From: an uncultured Clostridia bacterium
Lineage (GTDB): Bacteria > Bacillota > Clostridia > Lutisporales > Lutisporaceae
Reading direction: 5' to 3'
Assembly (NCBI GenBank): GCA_937930535.1
Contig: CALGKJ010000146.1
Span: forward strand, 1 to 52,152
DNA: 52,152 bases
Of this stretch, positions 37,323-48,640 are shown in pieces; the first letter of the stretch is position 1, and each line of letters begins with the position of its first letter. Both the position numbers and the translations under genes were made by a program. The notes below the pieces were generated by a model that searched no databases, had not been told where the DNA came from, and saw only the letters and a list, made by a program, of their open reading frames with translations.

Positions 37323-37451
37323 TTATGCTGCTCTTCTGTCGTTTTCCTCGTCTTGTTTATCTGGCTCAAAGTCTGATATGTGAATATCTGGCTCTTCTAT
37401 TTGCGGCATTTCAAGATCGCCGAAGATAATGCTTATAAGTTTGTTTCTCAT
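37323..37451 (-). CDS. Small acidic protein, 42 residues
   Basis: ATG at 37451 has AGGAGG 6 bases upstream, and the frame ends at TAA 37323. The product begins RNKLISIIFGDLEMPQIEEP, and the remainder is very acidic (DFEPDKQDEEND). The short amphipathic N-terminus followed by an acidic tail recalls small signalling or antitoxin-like peptides, but I cannot place it. Confidence 0.45.
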   Translation of the reverse strand: MRNKLISIIFGDLEMPQIEEPDIHISDFEPDKQDEENDRRAA

Positions 37452-37960
37452 TTTGCTCCTCCTATTGTAATATTACAGCTATTGATTACAAGCATTTATA
37501 GCTAAGCTTCTTATACTTGATAGGGGCAGCCCTCTTTTTGCTATTATATAAAAATTACATTTATCATGCTTTGCTTTTGTGATATACTATGTATGAGTGT
37601 TTACAGGATTACATTTGCAAGGTGGCATCCTGTTGCACTTGTGCTGAGAGTCGGTATGTTTCTTGTATATCTTGAAAAATTCCGGCTCTTTTAATTTTTT
37701 GTTATATGCTTCTCGATATTCAACACCTCCTGTTTGTGTAATCAATGCTGCCAATGTTATTTTATGACATCTAAAGAGGTGAGTCAACCCCAGCTTTTAC
37801 AGTATTTTACATGATAATTTATTGCTATTTCCATTCTTTGGATTTACAGAGCGGTAATAACTAATTTGCAGTACCAGCCAGCTTTTAATGCCGCTTAATG
37901 CATATAATTACAACAAAAAAAAATTGAGTTGATGTAAAAAAATAGGAGACCCAATGTCTC
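37452..37960. other. Intergenic region with one promoter-like sequence
   Basis: This 509-base stretch has no convincing gene. The minus strand carries TTGACT (37787-37782), 17 bases, TAAAAT (37764-37759), and AGGAGG about 30 bases further on, but no credible start codon follows the AGGAGG. It may be a decayed gene or an untranslated RNA. Confidence 0.4.
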
Positions 37961-37967
37961 CTATTTT
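37935..37967 (-). terminator. Terminator of the receptor-peptide operon
   Basis: Arms AATAGGAGAC/GTCTCCTATT with a 5-base loop and T7 tail overlap the stop codon of the second peptide gene. Confidence 0.9.
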
Positions 37968-38098
37968 ACACCTTTTACTATTCCTATGCAGTTTAAACCC
38001 CAAGGATCGCTGTCAGCACCTGCAAAGGCTGTTACTGTTAAGGATAAGGTCAATACTGCTACCAGGACTACACATATTAAGGATTTTAATGCTTTCAT
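37961..38098 (-). CDS. Secreted signalling-peptide precursor 2 (candidate RRNPP pheromone)
   Basis: This 45-codon gene starts at ATG 38098 with AGGAGGAG 7-8 bases upstream. It encodes a Sec signal peptide (residues 1-26, ending TAFA) and a mature part of 19 residues, GADSDPWGLNCIGIVKGVK. It is a tandem paralogue of the gene just upstream; the signal peptides are identical and the mature parts differ in a few residues. Position directly after a TPR regulator is the arrangement of PlcR-PapR-like and clostridial Qsr/Qss-type systems. A small bacteriocin-like peptide is the alternative. Confidence 0.78.
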   Translation of the reverse strand: MKALKSLICVVLVAVLTLSLTVTAFAGADSDPWGLNCIGIVKGVK

Positions 38099-38112
38099 TT
38101 AGCTCACTCCTC

Positions 38113-38250
38113 CTACTTTACCCCTTTTACTATTCCTATACAGTTTCTACCCCAAGGATCACTAACATCTCCTGCAAAGGCTGTTACTGTTAAGGACAAG
38201 GTCAATACTGCTACTAGGACTACACATATTAAGGATTTTAATGCTTTCAT
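38113..38250 (-). CDS. Secreted signalling-peptide precursor 1 (candidate RRNPP pheromone)
   Basis: This 45-codon gene begins 5 bases after the receptor stop; its AAGGAG ribosome binding site lies in the last receptor codons, so translation is coupled. It has a signal peptide of 26 residues (MKALKSLICVV...TAFA) and a mature part GDVSDPWGRNCIGIVKGVK. The conserved core SDPWG-x-NCIGIVKGVK is shared with the second copy, 14 bases downstream. The active peptide is probably a processed fragment that is re-imported and bound by the TPR receptor. Confidence 0.8.
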   Translation of the reverse strand: MKALKSLICVVLVAVLTLSLTVTAFAGDVSDPWGRNCIGIVKGVK

Positions 38251-38255
38251 TTAGC

Positions 38256-39506
38256 TCACTCCTTCAAACTTCTGATTTTTTTATAGATTTGTGCAACAGA
38301 TGAGTGCAGATTTAGTATGTACTCTTTATTATATACTATATCCTTGCTGTCTGCCATTTCTAGTACTGTATCAGCGAAGCTTTCCAGTAGGTACTTTTCC
38401 TTTATTGTTGATGCCAAATCATTGATGTCCTCAATAAGACAGCTTTTGTCCACCAGCTTTGTATTTGCAAGCTTCAGCTCCTTAAAGTAGTCGTAGCAGT
38501 CCACGGTATACCCCTGCAAATACCTTGCCTTTGTATAGGTTTGCTTATACAATATGTATCGTCTGTGATCTCTGGTATTTTTAATGTATGATATTGCTTT
38601 ATTACTAAGCTTTACTGCTTCATCATATTGCTGCATGTCTATCATTATTAACGCTTTATTGTTAAGCACCGAGCTAATTCGTGTAAAATCATTGCCGACA
38701 TACATAGCCAATACCTTGTCATATATTTCTATAGCTTTCTCGTACTTGGCTTCCTTGAAATAAGTAAGTCCGATATTCTGCATAGCAACGCTTGTTTCCT
38801 CAAGACTAACTGTTGAGGCTAGGGCATCTTGGAACAGTCTTCTTGCAAAGAGTATTCTGTTTCTGTCTATTTCAAACTTGCCTCTCCAGTAATAATATCG
38901 AAAAAGTGCATCTTCTTTCAATTTATTACGCTTTGTTATCTCGTCTGCCTTGTTAAAATAAAACGCTGCTTTATCCTCAAACTGCTCACGACCTAAAATA
39001 CTGCCAGCTTCACAATATAGCTGTACCAATCTATTTAAATCGTGGTTGTCCATCCTTTGTATAGCCAGCTCATACCATTCAATACATTGGCTTATGGCAT
39101 TTCTATAATAGCAGTTCATAGCCTTGGCTCTCAGCATCATAGCCTTTTCCACGGGCAAATCAAACTTTTCAAGGAGTATTTCCGTTGCTCTGATAATGTC
39201 CAGATCCTCTTTTTCGTTGTACAGCTTGATATTTGTATTGATATCCCAAGCTAGTCTTCTTGCCTGCTCTTGGTGGGATAATACGATATCTGAATAATGG
39301 ACATTAAAGCAGTTGACTATTGTACATTTTAAAGTTTCGGAGTATACTTTGTTTTTCGCCAGATATGTTCGTAAGGAATCAAGGGTTATGTTTAGTTTGT
39401 TTTTTTCAAAAAAATCTGCTACAGTTTGATAGCGTGTTAGTATATACTTTCTGATCTGCGGTCCTTCGCCTAATAGCTTAATATCTTCCTTCGTTAGCTT
39501 CTTCAT
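38256..39506 (-). CDS. TPR-type transcriptional regulator, RRNPP-like
   Basis: This 416-residue protein has an N-terminal region (about 1-70) compatible with a DNA-binding helix-turn-helix, then helical repeats to the C-terminus. TPR signatures are clear in AMQNIGLTYFKEAKYEKAIEIY and in NNKALIMIDMQQYDEAVKLS (each quoted run within residues 245-300). RRNPP receptors of this length bind imported oligopeptides and switch DNA binding. Two peptide genes follow in the same transcript. The promoter carries a near-palindrome CCAATTAACTGG that recurs before the thioredoxin-like gene. GGTGTTGAG precedes ATG. Confidence 0.78.
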   Translation of the reverse strand: MKKLTKEDIKLLGEGPQIRKYILTRYQTVADFFEKNKLNITLDSLRTYLAKNKVYSETLKCTIVNCFNVHYSDIVLSHQEQARRLAWDINTNIKLYNEKEDLDIIRATEILLEKFDLPVEKAMMLRAKAMNCYYRNAISQCIEWYELAIQRMDNHDLNRLVQLYCEAGSILGREQFEDKAAFYFNKADEITKRNKLKEDALFRYYYWRGKFEIDRNRILFARRLFQDALASTVSLEETSVAMQNIGLTYFKEAKYEKAIEIYDKVLAMYVGNDFTRISSVLNNKALIMIDMQQYDEAVKLSNKAISYIKNTRDHRRYILYKQTYTKARYLQGYTVDCYDYFKELKLANTKLVDKSCLIEDINDLASTIKEKYLLESFADTVLEMADSKDIVYNKEYILNLHSSVAQIYKKIRSLKE

Positions 39507-39537
39507 CTCAACACCTCAATATTGTATGCTATATAAA

Positions 39538-39566
39538 ATTATAACACTGTTTCCAGTTAATTGGTA
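39538..39566 (-). promoter_or_regulatory. Promoter with palindromic operator for the receptor operon
   Basis: The minus-strand -10 TATAAT (39543-39538) is preceded, where the -35 should be, by CCAATTAACTGG (39564-39553). A poor -35 (TACCAA) is covered by that site. The 37-base block is conserved at 46986-47022 before the thioredoxin-like gene, with the perfect palindrome CCAATTAATTGG. The pattern suggests a regulator-dependent promoter. Confidence 0.6.
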
Positions 39567-39867: not shown

Positions 39868-40040
39868 TTATTTCATCGCAAGTTCTTTCAGAAATTTATT
39901 ATGTCTAGCTTTTGCTTTGCTGATTGTTTCCTCAATTTCATCCAGATTCTTTTTAACTCCGGCAATGTCAACGCTTTCTTCTACTACTGCTGTGCTTACA
40001 TATCTCGAAATGTTCAGATTGAAATTGTTTTCTCTATCCC
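39868..40040 (-). pseudogene. C-terminal fragment of a type I restriction methylase (HsdM)
   Basis: About 55 codons encode RENNFNLNISRYVST followed by EESVDIAGVKKNLDEIEETI, which matches the C-terminus of HsdM N6-adenine methylases. The catalytic domain is absent. At its 5' end it is fused to the small HTH gene at 40034-40180, marking a recombination junction. Confidence 0.7.
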
Positions 40041-40180
40041 TCTGCCTCTTTGGGAATTGCCCAGACTGAGGCATACTTCATTGCACCTTCAATCCTGCCC
40101 CGGACGCATAATAGTTGGACTCGTCGAGGGGTTATTCCCCATTTCTCGGCAGCTTCTTTAACTGTTAAATAATCAAACAT
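40034..40180 (-). CDS. Small excisionase-like HTH protein, C-terminally truncated
   Basis: The 48-codon frame starts MFDYLTVKEAAEKWGITPRR and continues VQLLCVRGRIEGAMKYASVW, ending PKEAEG. This is the HTH_17/excisionase-type pattern of about 60 residues common next to restriction or integrative modules. The usual C-terminal tail is missing where the HsdM fragment begins. GAGGTG precedes ATG. Confidence 0.6.
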   Translation of the reverse strand: MFDYLTVKEAAEKWGITPRRVQLLCVRGRIEGAMKYASVWAIPKEAEG

Positions 40181-40212
40181 AAATACACCTCGACATTAAA
40201 AAATGTAGATCT

Positions 40213-40428
40213 TTAACCGACTCTATTCTCAGCATATGCTCCTCTAATATTTGCATTGAAATACTTGCCGATTGAAGAAGCAGAATCTATTTCAAACCAT
40301 ATATACTCAGGAACATCAAAATATTGCCATACTTGCCCATTAGATTTGAATTCAACCTCAAGAACGGCTTGAGAAGTATCATATCCAATGCTTGAAATCA
40401 TTGATGAATCAACGTATTTTCTATCCAT
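40213..40428 (-). CDS. KTSC-domain protein
   Basis: This 71-residue protein is a single KTSC domain: SSMISSIGYD near the start, LEVEFKSNGQVWQYFDVP in the middle and the SSIGKYFNANIR signature. The molecular function of KTSC is not established; such domains occur in phage and defence contexts. It is 13 bases after the HerA gene and reads the same way, so it may belong to the SIR2-HerA system. Confidence 0.8.
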   Translation of the reverse strand: MDRKYVDSSMISSIGYDTSQAVLEVEFKSNGQVWQYFDVPEYIWFEIDSASSIGKYFNANIRGAYAENRVG

Positions 40429-40441
40429 ATTCTAAATCTCC

Positions 40442-42238
40442 TTATAATTTTTGTTCTCTGATTTTTGTTACAACTTTTTTATAGCAATCTATGTCTTCAG
40501 AAAATTCAGTTATCCATTTATCCACTAATTTTGGATCAGCACTATCTGGTCTTGGATTCTGCAATGGAAGTCTAATCCTAGAAGGTATTTTTATAGCTTC
40601 ACCTACAACTATAGCTTCGCCAATTCTTAACGAAGGCAACAAATCTATTAAGCTATTCATGTTATCAGGAGCTAAAGATTTTACAATCGATTGATCCGAA
40701 GAGTTTGTAAGTCTAAGTGCTATGAATGTTCCAACTTGAGCTAGAATTGTTTCTGATATCTCAGAAGGGCGTTGTGATATAACGAGTGCCCCAACACCAA
40801 ATTTCCTGCCTTCCTTGAAAATTCTTTCGACCGCTACTTTGGCATAACTCGTACTATCATCTTTTCCTAAATAAGAATGCGCCTCATCATATGCTAAAAG
40901 CAAAGGTCTGTTCTTTCCTGTATTAGTATCATTTCGCCCCCAAAACATACTATCATAAACAAATCTCGTAATTAAGCCTACTGTAATATCCAACACTTCA
41001 AATGGTACATTACTCAAATCAAGTATTGTAAGCCTCTCATTATTACCAATCCAATCATTTAATAAATCATGTAAATCTTTTGGTGAATTTTCATCCTTGT
41101 AGTCACCAGGGTGAAACAAGAAATTATATCTACTATCTTTTAATCTATTAAGCAGTTTTTTCTCATAAGCATAATATTCATTATGCTGACTCTTAAATGG
41201 TGGTTGGTTTGCCGCAGTATCTAAATGTGATTGAAATTTAGCTCCTCTGAGCTCTTCATAATTACCTAAATCTTCAGTTTCATCAGCAAGTTTTTTTATG
41301 TACTTCAAAGAGTCATCTCTTGTTTGCTCATCTTTTTTTGTTGATGAGAAACTGGCATTCAACCACCAATTCATTTCGTGCCAGAGTTTTCTTGAACTAA
41401 ATGGTATCGGAGAATCTGCGGTAATAAAATTTTGATTTACTTCTCCAGCCTTTAATTTCCAATGTTCTCTTTTATATTGAGTAATTATTTCTCTTAACAA
41501 TCTATACTCAGGTCTTTGGTCATCTGTCGGTTTGGCTCCTACAAGAAAATAAGATAATTCATCGAAATTCATTAGCCAAAACGGTATATACAAAGGGTTG
41601 TTCTGGTCATTTATCTTGAATACTCTCGCTTCCGGAAAGGCGGATGCATACTCACCGTGTGGATCAATAAGAACTATTCTTGAATTACTATAATCATTTG
41701 CGATTTTCTTAATTATCCCTACTGTGGTATTAGATTTACCACTCCCAGTCGATCCAAGTATAGCGGCATGACGAAGAACCAATTTATGAACATCAACAAA
41801 AACATCCAAATTTTCTGATGATGAATGCTTTCCAATTGCAATTGCACCTGCATCACTCATTCCATAAATATCAACCAAGTCGTTTTCGATCACAATATGT
41901 ACTTCATCATTAATAGTTGGATATAATCCTATCCCTTTTTCAAAGTTACCATTACCAACTTTTTCACCAATTAAATTAACAGTCAAAAATCTTGATCCTA
42001 TTACTTGCTTTAATTCGCTCTCTGATGCTTTACTTGGTGTATTACTTACACTTGCAACTATTCCATAAGAATTTACATTTCCTACAGGTATCTTTACAAA
42101 TGTACCAATCTGTCCTATCTTATATACTTTCCCACCAATTATAGGGCTTGATGAGGGAATTCTATCACTTATTTCAACTTCTACAATATTTGAATCTACT
42201 CTAATTATCTTTCCTAAGAAAGTAATATCATTTTCCAT
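40442..42238 (-). CDS. HerA-like hexameric ATPase of a SIR2-HerA defence system
   Basis: This 598-residue protein has an N-terminal HAS-barrel-like beta domain (about 1-150) and a HerA/FtsK-type ATPase: Walker A GSTGSGKSN (162-170), then LIDPHGEY, Walker B LLLAYDEAHSYL, and a C-terminal arginine-containing RLTNSSDQ motor region. HerA rings pair with SIR2 effectors in characterised phage-defence systems that degrade NAD+. Its start overlaps the SIR2 stop by 11 bases, so the two are translationally coupled. Confidence 0.9.
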   Translation of the reverse strand: MENDITFLGKIIRVDSNIVEVEISDRIPSSSPIIGGKVYKIGQIGTFVKIPVGNVNSYGIVASVSNTPSKASESELKQVIGSRFLTVNLIGEKVGNGNFEKGIGLYPTINDEVHIVIENDLVDIYGMSDAGAIAIGKHSSSENLDVFVDVHKLVLRHAAILGSTGSGKSNTTVGIIKKIANDYSNSRIVLIDPHGEYASAFPEARVFKINDQNNPLYIPFWLMNFDELSYFLVGAKPTDDQRPEYRLLREIITQYKREHWKLKAGEVNQNFITADSPIPFSSRKLWHEMNWWLNASFSSTKKDEQTRDDSLKYIKKLADETEDLGNYEELRGAKFQSHLDTAANQPPFKSQHNEYYAYEKKLLNRLKDSRYNFLFHPGDYKDENSPKDLHDLLNDWIGNNERLTILDLSNVPFEVLDITVGLITRFVYDSMFWGRNDTNTGKNRPLLLAYDEAHSYLGKDDSTSYAKVAVERIFKEGRKFGVGALVISQRPSEISETILAQVGTFIALRLTNSSDQSIVKSLAPDNMNSLIDLLPSLRIGEAIVVGEAIKIPSRIRLPLQNPRPDSADPKLVDKWITEFSEDIDCYKKVVTKIREQKL

Positions 42239-43415
42239 TTACTACCTCCTCAATGCTACTTCTTCGCCCTGAATTAGCGATTAAAAAATCAACTAATTTT
42301 TTATAATCACCTAAAGTAAACTTCTCGGAAGGTTTGTCCCAATACAACTCACTGTTGTTTGTATCTCCAACACTCTCATCATATTTCCAATCGAACAATT
42401 TACCATTAATTATCATTTTCTTTGGACCCATAACGCATAGATTTAGATATGACATCGCATAGTCAACCATTGAGTCTACTTGTTCATCAGAAAAGCAAAG
42501 AACTATTGAATACAGACGAGGATTTTGTCTATGCCCGTTAAAAATAATTTCATTTATATGTTGATCAGAGAATGAATATCCAGAGAAAATAAATAGCAAC
42601 TCGCCCTGAAGCAAATAATTCTTAAGCCTATCAAAATACGCAATAAATGGCTGCTTTCTGGATAAATTATACTTCTCCTTTGATGGATAAATTACCAGTT
42701 CATTCTCAGGTTTATCGACCTTTCCAATTCGGACTATTTTTGATCTGTTTAGTGTAGATTCTTTTCTAAACTCCCAGTTTAATGAACCATGGATCTTCCA
42801 CAATCTAATCCAATTAAACGTCAAATCATTGTGTGAAATAGCTTTTTCAATACTTTCAGGCCAAAAGAACGGCTCATATGATCCAACAAAGCCATCGAAG
42901 TATGGCACATGATTATGCTCCATCGCTTTTTCTAGTAGCAAATCATAATTTGTTGTAAATATCTCTTTTACATAATTTCGATTTGTCATATCCAGCCATG
43001 CAAAAAACTTCCTAAGTTCTGTAATATCAGCGCCTTCTTCTTGCGCCTGAATTATTTCAAAAATGTTTTTACATATCATTTCATCCAAAATACGGGCTGT
43101 TTCTCCATTTATTCCATCGTACTTTCTATCATTTCTTTCTCCAGTGATTTCTCTGATCTGTCTTACATAATTTAAAATGTCTTCAACACTAATGCTTGTC
43201 TTACCGAGTAGTACAACTAAACTTTGCTTTAGGTTTTGAAAAACAGTCTTCATATCATTATCTAACTTTAATTCAACATCTTCAGTCAATTTAATTACGT
43301 TTGGCAATCCAAACGCACATGACATTCCTGCACCAAAAAAGAATCCTATATTTTTTGAGTATGACAACAATTTTTTCAGTTCGTCAATTTCTTGAATTAC
43401 ATTAATAAATCCCAT
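42228..43415 (-). CDS. SIR2-family NADase effector of a SIR2-HerA defence system
   Basis: This 395-residue protein has an N-terminal SIR2 fold: GAGMSCAFGLP (28-38) for NAD binding, EIFTTNYDLLLEKAM (TTNYD), and the catalytic His in WKIHGSLNW. The C-terminal part (ELLFIFSGYSFSDQHINEII) completes the SIR2-like domain. In known systems infection releases NAD+ hydrolysis and growth arrest. AAGGAG lies 10-11 bases upstream of ATG. First gene of the unit, 51 bases after the DUF1016 gene. Confidence 0.9.
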   Translation of the reverse strand: MGFINVIQEIDELKKLLSYSKNIGFFFGAGMSCAFGLPNVIKLTEDVELKLDNDMKTVFQNLKQSLVVLLGKTSISVEDILNYVRQIREITGERNDRKYDGINGETARILDEMICKNIFEIIQAQEEGADITELRKFFAWLDMTNRNYVKEIFTTNYDLLLEKAMEHNHVPYFDGFVGSYEPFFWPESIEKAISHNDLTFNWIRLWKIHGSLNWEFRKESTLNRSKIVRIGKVDKPENELVIYPSKEKYNLSRKQPFIAYFDRLKNYLLQGELLFIFSGYSFSDQHINEIIFNGHRQNPRLYSIVLCFSDEQVDSMVDYAMSYLNLCVMGPKKMIINGKLFDWKYDESVGDTNNSELYWDKPSEKFTLGDYKKLVDFLIANSGRRSSIEEVVNGK

Positions 43416-43466
43416 GTCATTGTTCTCCTTTTATGACTAATTGTCATGTTATTTTTTCAACAATGT

Positions 43467-44480
43467 TTATAACTTCTTTTCTATTTCTAAGAGTTCCTGT
43501 TCTTTTTCTAATTCTTTCTTCAGCTCTTCTTCAGTCGGCATATATAGCTTATATTTTGAAGCGAAAATCTGATTTTTGTCTTCTGGCAAGGTATATTTAA
43601 CAACCGAATCGCTTTTATCTGCACAAAGAATGATACCAATGGGAAGATTGTCTCCCTCATTCATAAGCTCTCTTGTAAAGTAATTGACATACATCTGCAT
43701 CTGCCCAATGTCTTGATGTTTCAGTTTGCCAACCTTCAAATCAATGATGACAAAGCATTTAAGAATATAGTTGTAAAACACTAAGTCAATAAAATAATGC
43801 TCTCCATCAAATGTAATTCTCTTCTGTCTTGAAACAAAAGAGAATCCTCGTCCGAGTTCAAGTAGAAATTTTTGCAAATGGCCAATTAAGCCTTGTTCTA
43901 TGTCTTTTTCATAGAGATTCGGTGTCTGCTCAAGTCCTAAAAATTCAAGTACATATGGGTCTCTTATAATGTCTTTTACATCCACGCCTTTTTCAAGTGT
44001 TAAAATTTCGTTCCTAACACTCTCCTGATCTTGACTTGATAGAAGTCGTTGATAATAGAAAGAATTAATTTGACGCTCCAATTGCCTTGTACTCCAATTG
44101 GATTTTGCACATTCGTCAAGATAAAACTGCCGTGCCTTTTCATCTTCAACCTTCAAAAGCATTCTATAATGTGTCCAACTCAATTGGTCACTCAGTGCGT
44201 GACGATTTGGAAAAGCAGTGTAGAATAAACGCATATATTTTAAATTCGTCACAGTGAAGCCTTTGCCAAATTCAGTAGTCAACTTCTCCGATAGGTATTT
44301 TATTAAGCCTGCACCATACTCCGCTCTCTCATTATCTCCTTGCGCTTCACAAATTAAGTTTCCAATATTCCAATAGGTTTCAACCATAACAAAATTGACA
44401 GAAGTAAAAACCTTTTTCTGTGCCTCTGTCACAGTTGCTCTAATATTCTCGTAAATGCTACTATCATCTAAATAATTCAC
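43467..44480 (-). CDS. DUF1016/YhcG-type PDDEXK nuclease
   Basis: This 337-residue protein has an N-terminal DUF1016 domain (YWNIGNLICE, FPNRHALSDQLSWTHYRMLL) and a C-terminal PDDEXK-type nuclease with FIDLVFYN and CFVIIDLKVGKL supplying the D...(D)xK residues. Family members are often found in type I restriction loci and defence islands, yet their role is unsettled. It reads into SIR2-HerA from upstream, so it may be part of the same island transcript. Confidence 0.87.
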   Translation of the reverse strand: MNYLDDSSIYENIRATVTEAQKKVFTSVNFVMVETYWNIGNLICEAQGDNERAEYGAGLIKYLSEKLTTEFGKGFTVTNLKYMRLFYTAFPNRHALSDQLSWTHYRMLLKVEDEKARQFYLDECAKSNWSTRQLERQINSFYYQRLLSSQDQESVRNEILTLEKGVDVKDIIRDPYVLEFLGLEQTPNLYEKDIEQGLIGHLQKFLLELGRGFSFVSRQKRITFDGEHYFIDLVFYNYILKCFVIIDLKVGKLKHQDIGQMQMYVNYFTRELMNEGDNLPIGIILCADKSDSVVKYTLPEDKNQIFASKYKLYMPTEEELKKELEKEQELLEIEKKL

Positions 44481-44637
44481 TGTAATCCCTCCAATGCAAT
44501 TTCAAGTATACTCATTATTGTAAAGAGCCAAATTGAAAAACATTTCCAATTACTATTTTATTCATTTATTCGTACTCAGTCAATGATTACCGAAGATTAC
44601 TTTCCAAAATGCTTTATCATTTTCTTCAAAAAAGTTA

Positions 44638-44664
44638 AATTGGTCACGCAGTGCGTGACCAATT
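44638..44664. repeat. 27-bp near-perfect palindrome in a coding remnant
   Basis: Arms of 13 bases (AATTGGTCACGCA/TGCGTGACCAATT) surround one base. The minus strand reads in frame as GHALRDQFN, close to HALSDQLSW in the DUF1016 protein. Inside that gene (44182-44207) the DNA is also almost the same palindrome. The frame continues to a stop (FFEENDKAFWKVIFGNH), which points to a short gene remnant upstream of the DUF1016 gene. Confidence 0.55.
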
Positions 44665-44766
44665 CGATCATAATTCAATATTTCTTTAATAGCAACATTC
44701 ACAGCCACTCTCTAGCTGTTACACATTCTTATTTTTAAACCCTTTCCAGTCTCAAAACACACTCAA

Positions 44767-44958
44767 CGTGCATCGTTTGTATTCTCTAGTATCTTTAATA
44801 CATGATATTGTATTATTACAAAGCTTTACTGTTAGATACCGAGCTAATCCGTGCAAAATCATTGCTATTATACATTCCCAGTGCCTTGTCGTATATTTCT
44901 ATAATTAGCCCTAGCTTTCAGCATGAATGCTTTTTTCATTGCAGATCAAATTTTTCCG
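44767..44958 (-). pseudogene. Decayed copy of the TPR receptor gene
   Basis: The DNA aligns by eye with 38560-38745 and 39115-39175 of the TPR receptor gene, for example ACCGAGCTAAT-CGTG-AAAATCATTGC and CTTGTCNTATATTTCTATA. It has an internal deletion and frame disruptions. It ends in repeat family A copy 4. This is evidence of a lost second receptor. Confidence 0.7.
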
Positions 44959-44996
44959 GTTGTTTCTCCCAAAGAGATTAGCAACTCTTAACGAAA
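44957..44996. repeat. Palindromic repeat family A, copy 4 (partial)
   Basis: GGTTGTTTCTCCCAAAGAG followed by ATTAGCAACTCT matches copy 3. The left arm is missing where it joins the receptor pseudogene. Confidence 0.55.
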
Positions 44997-45078
44997 AGTA
45001 TTTTGAGTTTTAAAGTTGGTTATCTATAATAATAGCCTTATAAGCCTGTTTTTCAAAATCCAAGGGTCTTAATAAAGC

Positions 45079-45717
45079 TTATGGTACTGCTTCGCACAGC
45101 AGCTCATTTTTTTCATTGTCTAATATATCAGCTAGATAGTCATATAGCTCGAATATCATTTTTTTCATTACATAATTTCTATGAATAACACAAGGTTCGC
45201 TGTCATTGAACATTTCGATACTTTTATGTATTATATATGCAACTAGCAGCAGGGGTGTAATAAGTGCAAAATCGTATATTATAAAATATATTAGTGCTTG
45301 GATATTTAGCTGACTGTTGGTTTGAAGGATCGTAATAATAGTGGCTAAGTAAATTTGACCTGTACATAAAAATTCCCCGAATGATATTAGTACACCTAGC
45401 ACTAAGCTAATCAGGAGCATCAGCTTTGAATCAGTTATATTTGTAAGTTTTTTTATAATATTATGGTTAAACCTTCTTAGAGCAGTAGGTAGTTGAACCT
45501 TGAATTTATTATATTTCTCCGTCTTTACTGAAAAATAGTCCTGTAGGTTTAATATAATCAATATTAATAAAGTTCCAGCCATTATGACTTTTGCTATTAT
45601 GCTGAACAAGTGGATGTTAAGCTTTGAAAGTATTGTAAATAAAAAAGTACACATAGCTAAATAGGTCAAAAACTTACCAATGCAAAATGCAATGGCTATC
45701 TTAAGGATATTACTGTG
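45079..45717 (-). pseudogene. N-terminally truncated DsbD-like membrane protein
   Basis: The frame is open from 45717 with TTG at 45669 as the first possible start. It encodes several membrane segments including AIAFCIGKFLTYLAMCTF and SFGEFLCTGQIYLATI, the latter typical of DsbD/CcdA-like transmembrane electron carriers with a Cys in the first helix of a repeat. The preceding half of the protein is missing. A functional short form starting at 45669 cannot be excluded. It probably belonged with the thioredoxin-like protein upstream. Confidence 0.55.
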
Positions 45718-45735
45718 GTATCAGCATTTAAAATA

Positions 45736-45900
45736 TTAATTCCAATAGTCAAAATAAATAATAAAATTTGTATTTGTATTGAATATTGCTTTTCCGACTT
45801 GTATTTTATCTATATTGATTTTTTCTATATATTCGCTCTGACAAGCGGTCAATACTGCAATACCCAATAATATTAATAACATAATTGTTCTTTTCTTCAT
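45736..45900 (-). pseudogene. Truncated lipoprotein ORF
   Basis: ATG 45900 has GGAGG 8 bases upstream. The 54 residues start KKRTIMLLILLGIAVLTAC (lipobox Cys at 20) and stop soon after. The short length and the adjacent DsbD fragment suggest an internal deletion joining two genes. A real small lipoprotein is possible. Confidence 0.5.
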
Positions 45901-45964
45901 ATGAGTTTCCTCCGTCTATGTTGATAAATATATGTAGAAACATGTACTATCAGGTTTACTATTT

Positions 45965-46113
45965 ATGTTTAACGAATGGTCAGAAGGGAAGTCTGCCGCT
46001 TATATAAGTGGGGGTGAATATACTAAAGAAAATAAGTTTCAGTAGGGGTATAAATCCCCTTCTGAACTCGTTAAAATCACGATATTGCAACGTAGTTGTA
46101 ATATCGTCTTTAA
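45965..46113. repeat. 149-bp structured repeat, copy 2
   Basis: Second copy of 35786-35934, in direct orientation some 10 kb away. All long complementary blocks are preserved. The stop of the embedded 26-codon frame changes from TGA to TAG. It lies 88 bases after the thioredoxin-like gene stop. The rest of 45901-46200 holds no gene. Confidence 0.85.
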
Positions 46114-46200
46114 GCTATGAGTTTATTTGTATCTTAATTTCAGATTAGCAGCAAGAGTCTACTACTGTTATAGAACGAGTTTCTCTTACTTGTTTACCTT

Positions 46201-46851
46201 CTACATCACAGTATCTTTGAGAGTTTCCATAGTTTTTTCAGCTTCACTGCAAGCTTCACAATTTGTTGTTGAAAAAAATAATAATAAAGGCTTGTCCTTA
46301 TTGGTTTTACTATTTTTTAAAAAACTGCTGACCTTATCTGATAATAGTTTACTATTAGATTTATCAAATAAACTATTGATAATTGATTCATAGTAGGGGG
46401 TATTCATCAATACTATATTATCTTTATCAAGGACAAATGCTGATGGTTTGACTCTATTTAAGCTGTATTTATTATTCGTGGAAAAATTATTAGATAAGTC
46501 AATATTAGCTTTTTCTAATCGTCTTATGGGGATTGTATCTTCCCAAAGTAGTAGAAAGGTTATATTTTCATCACCGAAAACATTTTTTATATTATTTATA
46601 GTATCTAAAGCTTCGATGCAAGCATCGCAGTAATTTGAAAGATGAAATATGACTTTTTCTCCATCAATGCTGGTTAATAAGTCTGTGGATTTTAATTTTT
46701 CATTATCTGCATTATAAAGATTTATGTTAGGGAAATTATCGCCCTGTAATAAATCAATAAAGTCAGGTTTTTTTATTTGATTTATAATAAATGTTCCTGC
46801 AATAGCAATAACTGCAATTAAAACAATTGTCAATAATATGCTTTTCTTCAT
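46201..46851 (-). CDS. Membrane-anchored protein with two thioredoxin-like CxxC sites
   Basis: This 216-residue protein has an N-terminal membrane anchor (about 4-25) and an extracytoplasmic thioredoxin-like domain with C75-D-A-C78. A second domain begins with C198-E-A-C201 and stops after only 15 further residues. Just past the stop, the -1 frame continues as CDVEGKQVRETRS and ends DSCC, so a frameshift may have shortened it. It is upstream of the DsbD-like fragment and shares its promoter block and 5' leader with the TPR receptor gene, so it is a likely member of that regulon. Confidence 0.65.
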   Translation of the reverse strand: MKKSILLTIVLIAVIAIAGTFIINQIKKPDFIDLLQGDNFPNINLYNADNEKLKSTDLLTSIDGEKVIFHLSNYCDACIEALDTINNIKNVFGDENITFLLLWEDTIPIRRLEKANIDLSNNFSTNNKYSLNRVKPSAFVLDKDNIVLMNTPYYESIINSLFDKSNSKLLSDKVSSFLKNSKTNKDKPLLLFFSTTNCEACSEAEKTMETLKDTVM

Positions 46852-46875
46852 CTCAACACCCCAATAATGTATGTT

Positions 46876-46929
46876 ATATAAATAGTGACAAGGATTTGCA
46901 TAATCTCAAGTATTATACACTATTTATAT
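46876..46929. repeat. Repeat family B, copy 2
   Basis: Perfect arms ATATAAATAGTG and CACTATTTATAT match the inner palindrome at 11080-11134 in arm sequence and length. Here the element lies between the -10 box and the ribosome binding site of the thioredoxin-like gene, in a leader otherwise homologous to that of the TPR receptor. Confidence 0.65.
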
Positions 46930-46932
46930 TTG

Positions 46933-46978
46933 ATAGAAAATGACAGTGTTTTAATGTAAAATCACTGTCATTTTCTAT
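46933..46978. terminator. 16-bp perfect stem-loop in the thioredoxin-like leader
   Basis: Arms ATAGAAAATGACAGTG/CACTGTCATTTTCTAT with a 14-base loop sit between promoter and gene. It may attenuate transcription; the tail lacks a clean T-run. Confidence 0.5.
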
Positions 46979-46987
46979 ATATATTAA

Positions 46988-47016
46988 ATTATAACAGTGT
47001 TTCCAATTAATTGGTA
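46988..47016 (-). promoter_or_regulatory. Promoter with perfect palindromic operator, thioredoxin-like gene
   Basis: The -10 TATAAT (46993-46988) is preceded at the -35 position by the perfect 12-base palindrome CCAATTAATTGG (47014-47003). The spacing to the -10 is identical to that in the receptor promoter at 39538-39566. Confidence 0.6.
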
Positions 47017-47034
47017 GGTTTTTGTAATATATGT

Positions 47035-47383
47035 TTAAGCTCTCTTTTTAAAACTGTCATAAACCTCCTCAAACATATCGCTCATTACTATATCCTTAAA
47101 TTCACCGTCCTCCAGAATCCTCATAAAGAATTTTTGGTTTTGTGCCATTCTTCGTATTACTACATCCTGAAAAGCCTTTTGGTAGCTGAACAACAAAAAA
47201 GGCTTCTTAATGGTTTAAACTCCTCATCCTGCTTCATTTTCCTCTCAAATATTCTTAGCAATAGTAATTAAATTATATATTCAACCCTTCGAACCGGTGT
47301 CCCTTCCGGTCTAAGTTTATTATGCAATGCTTTCAAGGCATTGTTTGTTTACTATCAGCGTAATGTACTGTTGATCTGCCCAT
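47035..47383 (-). pseudogene. Remnant of type I restriction genes
   Basis: From ATG 47383 (AAAGGAG upstream) the frames read GRSTVHYADSKQTMP, ALHNKLRPEGTPVRRVEYII, then LLLLRIFERKMKQDEEFKPL with stops and frameshifts, resembling a DNA methylase N-terminus. After a deletion it runs into RRMAQNQKFFMRILEDGEFK and a short helical tail, matching the HsdR C-terminus. With the HsdM fragment at 39868 this is the debris of a restriction-modification operon. Confidence 0.6.
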
Positions 47384-47416
47384 GCTATATATCTCCTTTG
47401 TCTAATTAACTCTCGC

Positions 47417-48640
47417 TTAAACCGCATTTTCTTTTAGAGTATCACTAAGAACATCCTTAATCAGTTGATAATCAACCAAAGTAACCAGTTCCCATACAAT
47501 TCTGTCTATCCGCTTTTTAAAAAGATCTGTACTTGATCCAGCAATGTTTCCAAAGTTCTTTTCCAGTAAATCTCTCACTTCTTTATTGATTTTCCCACGT
47601 TCTGCCCCTCTTATGTGTTCAAATTTCAATTTTCTAATGTACTCTTCAATTTCTCTAAACAAGAGTATTCTCGTATCACCATGGAAAATATAGTCCGTTA
47701 GGAGATCAAGCTGATACCCTACAATTGCCCACTGTGCCTTATCTCTATTAACAGATTTCCTTAGATACAATGCTTGAAAATCATTCGCTCTTTGGAGAAG
47801 TTTACTATCATTTTCAACATTTTTCAGATTATTAATCAATAATTTCATATCCTTAAAAAGTTGGTTGCAATCATAAGGTAAACCATGCATCATGCATTCA
47901 ACCTGAGCCGTTTTTTCATAATTTGACTTGATTAGCTCTTTATTTTTAAGCACCTTGTCCAAATTAGAAACAAATAACGTAATAACATCATAGATCTGCT
48001 TCACCTGTTCATCGGCTCTTTCATCTGAAATTCCAATTGTGTTGGGTCCAAGTGTCGTCAGCTTATCAGCAAATAAGTTTTCAAACGCTAAGACATTAAA
48101 CTCCTGTTCTGTTTCTAATGCAAATAGCTCTGGCTGTTTTATTTTATTAATTGAATAATCATCTTTTGAAAAAATAAACTCAATTTTAACTTCCTGCTTT
48201 CCTTTTGTTGTATAAAGCTCTTGCTCATTACAGATACTTGGCACTGTTTCAAAATATGTTTCTAATGCATCCAGTCCCAGCTTAGGGTTCTTTGGTTCAT
48301 AAATTCTGAACTTACAGTATTCACCTGACCCATTAAATTCAGTTTCTATTTCCAAAATTGCTTGATGTACTTCTTCAGGTGAGGCTAGACAAATCATATC
48401 AATATCAATACTTGTTCTTTGCCCTGCTATCGGTATATAGAACTGGGTTGCAGCTCCACCTTTCAATATGATTTTATCTCCAAGCTTTTTTTGTAATTGC
48501 AGAAACATCTCAAGATCCCAAATAAAAAGTTCAAATTTTGAAAGTGAGTTAAATCCACCATCAACCATCCGTTTCTCGATTTCAGTTCTCAAGAAAACTT
48601 CTTTCTCCAAAATTAGATTCTCTACATTTATCAGTTTCAT
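47417..48640 (-). CDS. AbiEii/AbiGii-type nucleotidyltransferase toxin
   Basis: This 407-residue protein is of the type IV toxin family. The nucleotidyltransferase signature is ILKGGAATQFYIPIAGQR followed by TSIDIDMI (G-x-A...DxD), and FADKLTTLG carries the conserved Lys. Known AbiEii-type toxins modify tRNA or other targets with nucleotides and arrest growth. The start overlaps the antitoxin stop by 4 bases (ATGA), as in abiE operons. Confidence 0.88.
   Translation of the reverse strand: MKLINVENLILEKEVFLRTEIEKRMVDGGFNSLSKFELFIWDLEMFLQLQKKLGDKIILKGGAATQFYIPIAGQRTSIDIDMICLASPEEVHQAILEIETEFNGSGEYCKFRIYEPKNPKLGLDALETYFETVPSICNEQELYTTKGKQEVKIEFIFSKDDYSINKIKQPELFALETEQEFNVLAFENLFADKLTTLGPNTIGISDERADEQVKQIYDVITLFVSNLDKVLKNKELIKSNYEKTAQVECMMHGLPYDCNQLFKDMKLLINNLKNVENDSKLLQRANDFQALYLRKSVNRDKAQWAIVGYQLDLLTDYIFHGDTRILLFREIEEYIRKLKFEHIRGAERGKINKEVRDLLEKNFGNIAGSSTDLFKKRIDRIVWELVTLVDYQLIKDVLSDTLKENAV

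Follow-up and report, generated by a model that had tools for sequence, protein, structure and literature searches.

Layout of the unit

If a regulator gene is followed at once by two short genes for secreted peptides, do the three together form a signalling unit? An earlier note had drawn attention to such an arrangement in the window (the whole stretch of 52,152 nucleotides analysed here): a 416-residue TPR regulator, two 45-codon genes with identical signal peptides and the mature parts GDVSDPWGRNCIGIVKGVK and GADSDPWGLNCIGIVKGVK, and a terminator, read together as a candidate RRNPP quorum-sensing unit. Each of these elements was recovered (table 1). The unit lies on the minus strand throughout, in the order regulator, two pre-peptide genes, terminator hairpin; Pfam recognizes the TPRs and the ORF translations return both mature parts as described. 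Residues 1–27 of the two precursors (MKALKSLICVVLVAVLTLSLTVTAFAG) are the same in protein, with 24 codons identical and three changed synonymously. The hairpin folds at -13.1 kcal/mol (z -4.7) and is followed by a U run; it is absent from the list given by a simple terminator pattern scan.

The ATG of peptide ORF A lies 5 nt past the regulator stop, and its Shine–Dalgarno sequence overlaps that stop, a geometry that makes translational coupling of the regulator and ORF A plausible. ORFs A and B each have a Shine–Dalgarno sequence of their own. In the mature parts the last 10 residues (NCIGIVKGVK) are identical in protein, and the differences (DV/AD and R/L) lie right around a D-P-x-G core. Could the pairing be a matter of chance? 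A peptide profile run against the whole 4.69-Mb genome found ORF A at E 1.4e-20 and ORF B at E 1.5e-19. Values of about 1e-20 for both ORFs, together with a layout that recurs at 24 loci, argue that it is not.

Table 1. Features of the unit and its surroundings; positions are those of the window unless a locus is named.
Feature	Position	Strand	Basis
Receptor/regulator, 416 aa; XRE-type HTH (~1–76) and TPR-type domain (~78–414)	38256..39506	-	Pfam TPR, AlphaFold
Candidate pre-pheromone A, 45 aa, Sec signal peptide, AFA|G site, mature part GDVSDPWGRNCIGIVKGVK	38113..38250	-	ORF, profile, Shine–Dalgarno
Candidate pre-pheromone B, tandem copy, 45 aa, mature part GADSDPWGLNCIGIVKGVK	37961..38098	-	ORF, profile, own Shine–Dalgarno
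Intrinsic-terminator-like hairpin AAUAGGAGACAUUGGGUCUCCUAUU and U run	~37941..37965	-	folding energy
Structured RNA element, subtype 2 (model R2)	37578..37646	-	one of exactly four genome copies
Small acidic ORF X, 42 aa, MRNKLISIIFGDLEMPQIEEPDIHISDFEPDKQDEENDRRAA; candidate local target/effector	37323..37451	-	recurring motif and Shine–Dalgarno
RNA and/or X sites	37323–37700; L007, L011, L014, L016, L019, L020, L026, L066, L075, L079, L086, L102, L105	- (window)	
Defence island genes	39868–48640	-	KTSC protein, small HTH, HerA, SIR2 (SIR2–HerA pair), DUF1016/YhcG nuclease (PDC-S02), AbiEii

Fold of the receptor

What kind of protein is the regulator? NCBIfam, PHROGs and Pfam give it no name beyond TPR, the only feature that Pfam detects. 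We therefore describe it from an AlphaFold model built on an alignment of 21 paralogs, with a mean pLDDT of 93, in which a five-helix N-terminal domain precedes 17 helices of the nine-TPR type. When 957 chains were re-aligned to this model with VIA-align, the top matches were RapJ–PhrC (Z 24.3), the Rap of phage phi3T with its pheromone (24.2), RapF–PhrF (23.0) and NprR (22.8), with AimR lower at Z 19 and unrelated TPR proteins close behind Rap and NprR, as expected for solenoids. As modelled, the TPR solenoid of the receptor is of the kind found in Rap, NprR and AimR. A signal peptide was looked for in its sequence and none was found.

The N-terminal domain, modelled alone, aligns at VIA-align Z 7–8 mainly with XRE repressors, among them ImmR, CylR2, SinR, DdrO, PrgX and ComR, of which PrgX and ComR are RRNPP members. 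The Foldseek E value of this domain is only about 0.5 and the Pfam scan gave no HTH match, so the assignment stands at the level of the fold; at that level the receptor carries an N-terminal XRE-type HTH. Such a domain is a feature of all RRNPPA subfamilies except Rap, and its presence ruled out identity with a Rap phosphatase.

Receptor loci in the genome and in relatives

How many such units does the bacterium possess? Its genome, probably clostridial (Bacillota), is a fragmented 4.69-Mb draft in 252 contigs, 97% complete, and contains 33 receptor loci: 25 of full length, six cut by contig ends and two broken (C40, C61). The sibling species (genome 80% complete) has two receptors and other genomes of the family have 0–3, while samples of some 370 further genomes of the class, searched at 1e-30, and of 398 genomes of the phylum, searched at 1e-15, yielded only one weak partial match. 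A pre-peptide gene lies directly behind, or overlaps, the receptor gene at 24 of the 29 loci with downstream DNA present; the five receptors without one are L022, L023, L026 and both of L032. Two peptide copies are found at seven of the 24 (L001, which is the window unit, L002, L003, L004, L006, L016 and L017). L004 has a degenerate third copy besides, and L021 has a single precursor with two repeats. The same order, receptor then precursor, was seen in further genera of the family, at two receptors of G001, two of the three of G005 and two of G003. Judged from these sequences, receptor and pre-peptide are inherited together as a pair across many receptor loci.

Three receptor homologs in the relatives G003 and G009 (L094, L095 and L096) lack the N-terminal HTH and are thus Rap-like; L094 and L095 have kept their peptide genes, in which VDDVGL or HDTxPD segments are repeated. 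The receptor locus represented by L076, L091, L094 and L096 has the same neighbours in three genera, which makes it the probable ancestral receptor position; by eye, we take these neighbours to be DUF1003-like, RNA methyltransferase-like and aminopeptidase-like genes. Within the window, a TPR-like remnant at 44804–44908 (minus strand), 60% identical to receptor residues 257–291 and interrupted by internal stops, is probably a decayed paralog.

The peptide family

Aligned, the pre-peptides share a conserved signal peptide, Ala at -1 and, in at least 90% of rows, D-P in the mature part, mostly as D-P-x-G. Across loci this core is conserved and the tail is the most variable portion. The earlier note had suggested looking for the peptide motif beside TPR genes. 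All 30 matches of the genome-wide profile below 1e-10 adjoin a receptor gene or sit where a contig breaks off at the expected place of the receptor. Of these matches, those at C23, C52, C61 and C65 were absent from the profile's own input. A weaker match, at C31, also has a receptor C-terminus directly upstream. The only possible orphan pre-peptide, with no receptor close by, is MKKNLIALSLALLLVFLLTSCVLAEDYDDPIGKPIQKNET (L068, C16:18990–19094, minus strand). Neither the pre-peptides nor X matched any family in Pfam or NCBIfam.

Mature RRNPPA peptides are 5–10 residues long and are reimported by Opp. At about 18 residues, the mature part in the window exceeds most RRNPP pheromones in length. The genome has four OppA-like (SBP_bac_5) binding proteins, although such proteins are common in general.

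Divergence of receptors and peptides

If receptor and peptide work together, do they also diverge together? The nearest paralog of the window receptor is L002 (86%). Between the two, the first 80 codons, which cover the HTH, have 0 nonsynonymous and 7 synonymous changes, against 59 and 53 in the rest of the gene (Fisher p 0.013), and the changes cluster densely at residues 161–290. Similarity in DNA stops about 320 nt past the receptor stop, which is the end of the two peptide genes and the terminator. Since the TPR part and the mature peptides differ and the HTH is without amino-acid change, the comparison suggests that the window unit and L002 share a DNA target and are diverging in signal.

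Tandem peptide copies show the corresponding contrast, with nonsynonymous codons at 12 of 162 positions in the signal peptide and 36 of 111 in the mature part (p 2e-7, or p 5e-4 when the degenerate L016 pair is left out). Rap–Phr has been described as showing such a pattern, with intralocus phr duplication supplying a promiscuous intermediate (PMC5199041). In the tree, tandem copies group by locus even among the three related two-copy loci (the L002 and L003 pairs resolved, L001 unresolved); either duplication recurs or the copies are homogenized. Receptor and peptide trees have the clades (L004,L007), (L012,L030), (L014,L017) and (L001–L003) in common, and TPR distances correlate with mature-peptide distances (Mantel r 0.46, p 4e-4). 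Conditioning on the HTH or the signal peptide lowers r to 0.13–0.18, so that much of this signal is co-inheritance.

The RNA–X cassette downstream

What might the unit control? Clustering of the unit neighbours for a common protein-coding target returned none apart from a tiny acidic ORF, X, that follows a structured RNA of two subtypes. About 15 copies of this RNA–X cassette occur in the genome. The ORFs of the X family have 25–46 residues, a D[ILV]E[MLFT]P core, an acidic tail and a strong Shine–Dalgarno sequence (AGGAGGAGCAAAATG in the window), and recur behind the RNA. In subtype 1 (model R1), AAAAAGTGATA/TATCACTTTTT close a three-way junction; a genome-wide model search gave 11 copies at E <1e-9 and one weak copy. 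Covariation is strong: across the 12 sequences, in an alignment fitted to the model, 15 pairs changed on both sides, compared with 4.0 in shuffles, and the pairing was lost when the alignment was slid. The related subtype 2 has exactly four copies, all some 0.3–0.6 kb downstream of a receptor gene or of the peptide genes that follow it, and nowhere else in the genome. At the gathering threshold Rfam gave no match for the RNA, and its weak matches are chance hits to eukaryotic families. A peptide-coding reading of the RNA region was dropped, its reading frames not being conserved.

X was first found by searching receptor flanks, a biased route; the genome-wide scans are free of that bias. They place nine or ten of the 15 distinct RNA copies within about 0.8 kb downstream of a receptor or peptide gene on the same strand, and at C134, C169, C65 and C33 the RNA match falls together with an X ORF that the protein profile had picked up separately. 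Within 1.5 kb of L002 and L003, the closest paralogs, there is no X, which excludes it as a target common to all units. A further X ORF (SDIELP), with no detectable RNA element, lies at G000:C61, 3.9 kb downstream of an XRE and TPR-like regulator of another type (L107, 4876–6228, plus strand).

By analogy with Alo13, which controls a downstream spo0E-like gene, and with AimR, which controls aimX (PMC7425212), the RNA–X cassette is a candidate local target of the window unit.

Defence genes nearby

A defence island lies directly upstream of the window receptor, on the same strand (table 1). Other units adjoin restriction–modification or defence-like genes at L075 (7588–14296), L082 (5353–7465), L088 (8508–10857) and L074 (8460–11723). 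At C134 a type I restriction–modification system stands between the unit and RNA–X, and PADLOC marks a DpdF-like helicase near a receptor unit. By eye we also take certain genes near receptor units to be a DpnII-like pair and a C5 methylase.

Comparison with known systems

Receptor–peptide systems of this type have several precedents (PMC7425212, PMC7376267, PMC5199041, PMC11343458). Among the closest is Alo (AloR–AloP), in which an HTH and TPR receptor likewise directly precedes a Sec pre-peptide and has undergone huge paralogous expansion: Paenibacillus terrae has up to 40 receptors, 27 of them with peptides, the largest reported repertoire (PMC7425212). Tandem peptide genes occur there too (aloP10 alpha and beta, PMC7425212), as does a small gene just downstream; in Alo this is the regulated spo0E-like gene and here it is the RNA–X cassette, with no Spo0E. 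On the other hand, the AloP13 pheromone is SHGRGG whereas the peptides here have a D-P-x-G core, and in the reported search AloR was found essentially only in Paenibacillaceae (PMC7425212).

Solventogenic Clostridium also has several HTH–TPR and pre-peptide pairs per genome, Qsr–Qsp and QssR–QssP, but these number 8 and 5 against the 33 receptor loci here (PMC7376267, PMC7206700). Their peptides conserve L, P and W rather than D-P-x-G; in QspB the active fragment, AEPTWGW, comes from within the peptide and includes the conserved Pro and Trp (PMC7376267, PMC7206700). Rap–Phr and NprR–NprX of Bacillus provide the best fold matches of the window receptor, and intralocus phr duplication and divergence are known in Rap–Phr (PMC5199041, PMC11343458). 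Rap has no HTH, unlike the receptors of this genome, though the relatives G003 and G009 carry HTH-less versions. In a structural phylogeny, clans B and C have this HTH and nine-TPR architecture; the paper also reports a DPG motif in peptides of the AimR group (PMC12700828).

Arbitrium (AimR–AimP–aimX) similarly combines receptor, peptide and a small downstream transcription unit. It is phage-borne, whereas here one receptor locus retains its neighbours across three genera. Phage and plasmid collections and viral contigs gave no match for the window unit, and no phage genes were found among the window neighbours examined. The unit is chromosomal, and identity with arbitrium was ruled out.

Proposed mechanism and alternatives

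The reading that the earlier note had put forward is supported by the fold and domain order of the receptor, by the adjacency of the genes, by conservation of the pair across the family and by their coordinated divergence. We consider it highly probable, from the sequences and the receptor model, that the window holds an RRNPPA-type quorum-sensing unit within a large lineage-specific expansion. The pre-peptides would be exported by Sec and cut by signal peptidase after AFA, and a further protease would trim them to a short form carrying the D-P-x-G core. An Opp-type permease would return this form to the cell, where it would bind the TPR groove and change how the receptor binds DNA. The receptor would probably act on its own operon and, where present, on the promoter or leader of the downstream RNA–X cassette. 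Both tandem peptides are most likely ligands of the single window receptor, the second copy being a diverging variant that would allow receptor specificity to drift, as proposed for Rap–Phr; as the HTH is kept, the regulon probably is too.

Might the second gene instead be a dosage copy, both precursors yielding one active fragment, for example from NCIGIVKGVK, and hence one signal? The identity of the signal peptides and of the last 10 mature residues, and the grouping of tandem copies by locus, would fit this, and we give it a real though minority chance. Yet the shared tail is the very portion that varies most across loci, whereas A and B differ right around the conserved core (DV/AD, R/L), and the mature parts of other tandem loci are strongly divergent. 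That the peptides are antimicrobial or toxin-like effectors under a TPR regulator, rather than signals, we regard as very improbable. They are predicted to be secreted, contain cysteine and are diversified, and units sometimes adjoin defence or restriction genes; but they pair one-to-one with a TPR receptor whose top folds are pheromone receptors, as short ORFs directly behind or overlapping its gene, their D-P-x-G core recurs and the unit is without an immunity gene.

A further alternative concerns the target and not the signalling pair: RNA–X may be an independent element that lies near receptor genes by happenstance and is not controlled by them. Its chances seem to us only somewhat short of even. 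X or RNA also occurs 3–10 kb away or unlinked (C134, C169, C65, C69, C117, C61), many units, including the two closest paralogs, have no RNA–X, and the discovery of X began near receptors. Against happenstance, the genome-wide models put 10 of the 15 distinct RNA copies on the same strand about 0.5–0.8 kb behind a receptor or peptide gene, and subtype 2 is found nowhere but behind receptor units. The X core, in which D-[IVL]-E-[LM]-P follows a hydrophobic stretch, resembles, as we take it, the phospho-acceptor site of response-regulator receiver domains. The fullest proposal, a new RRNPPA subfamily (HTH and nine TPRs, D-P-x-G pheromones) massively expanded in one lineage, in which many units drive a hitherto undescribed output of a structured leader RNA and the tiny acidic X, and X is perhaps a phosphorelay decoy, is tentative, and as a whole we think it rather unlikely.

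Significance

With 33 receptor loci and about as many pre-peptides, the genome ranks with the largest reported repertoire, that of P. terrae (PMC7425212), and the bacterium's stock of private peptide ‘languages’ seems to be among the largest known. The expansion sits in a lineage apparently outside earlier surveys, in which the sibling species has only two receptors. Four things are new here: how far the family has expanded in this lineage, the peptide family with its D-P-x-G core, a divergence of specificity that can be seen in the sequences, and the RNA–X cassette, an unnamed candidate output of peptide-signalling systems. The paralogs appear to have been caught in the act of diverging, with the HTH fixed, the TPR groove and the peptide changing and the peptide genes in tandem, and would thus allow a direct test of how specificity splits without crosstalk.
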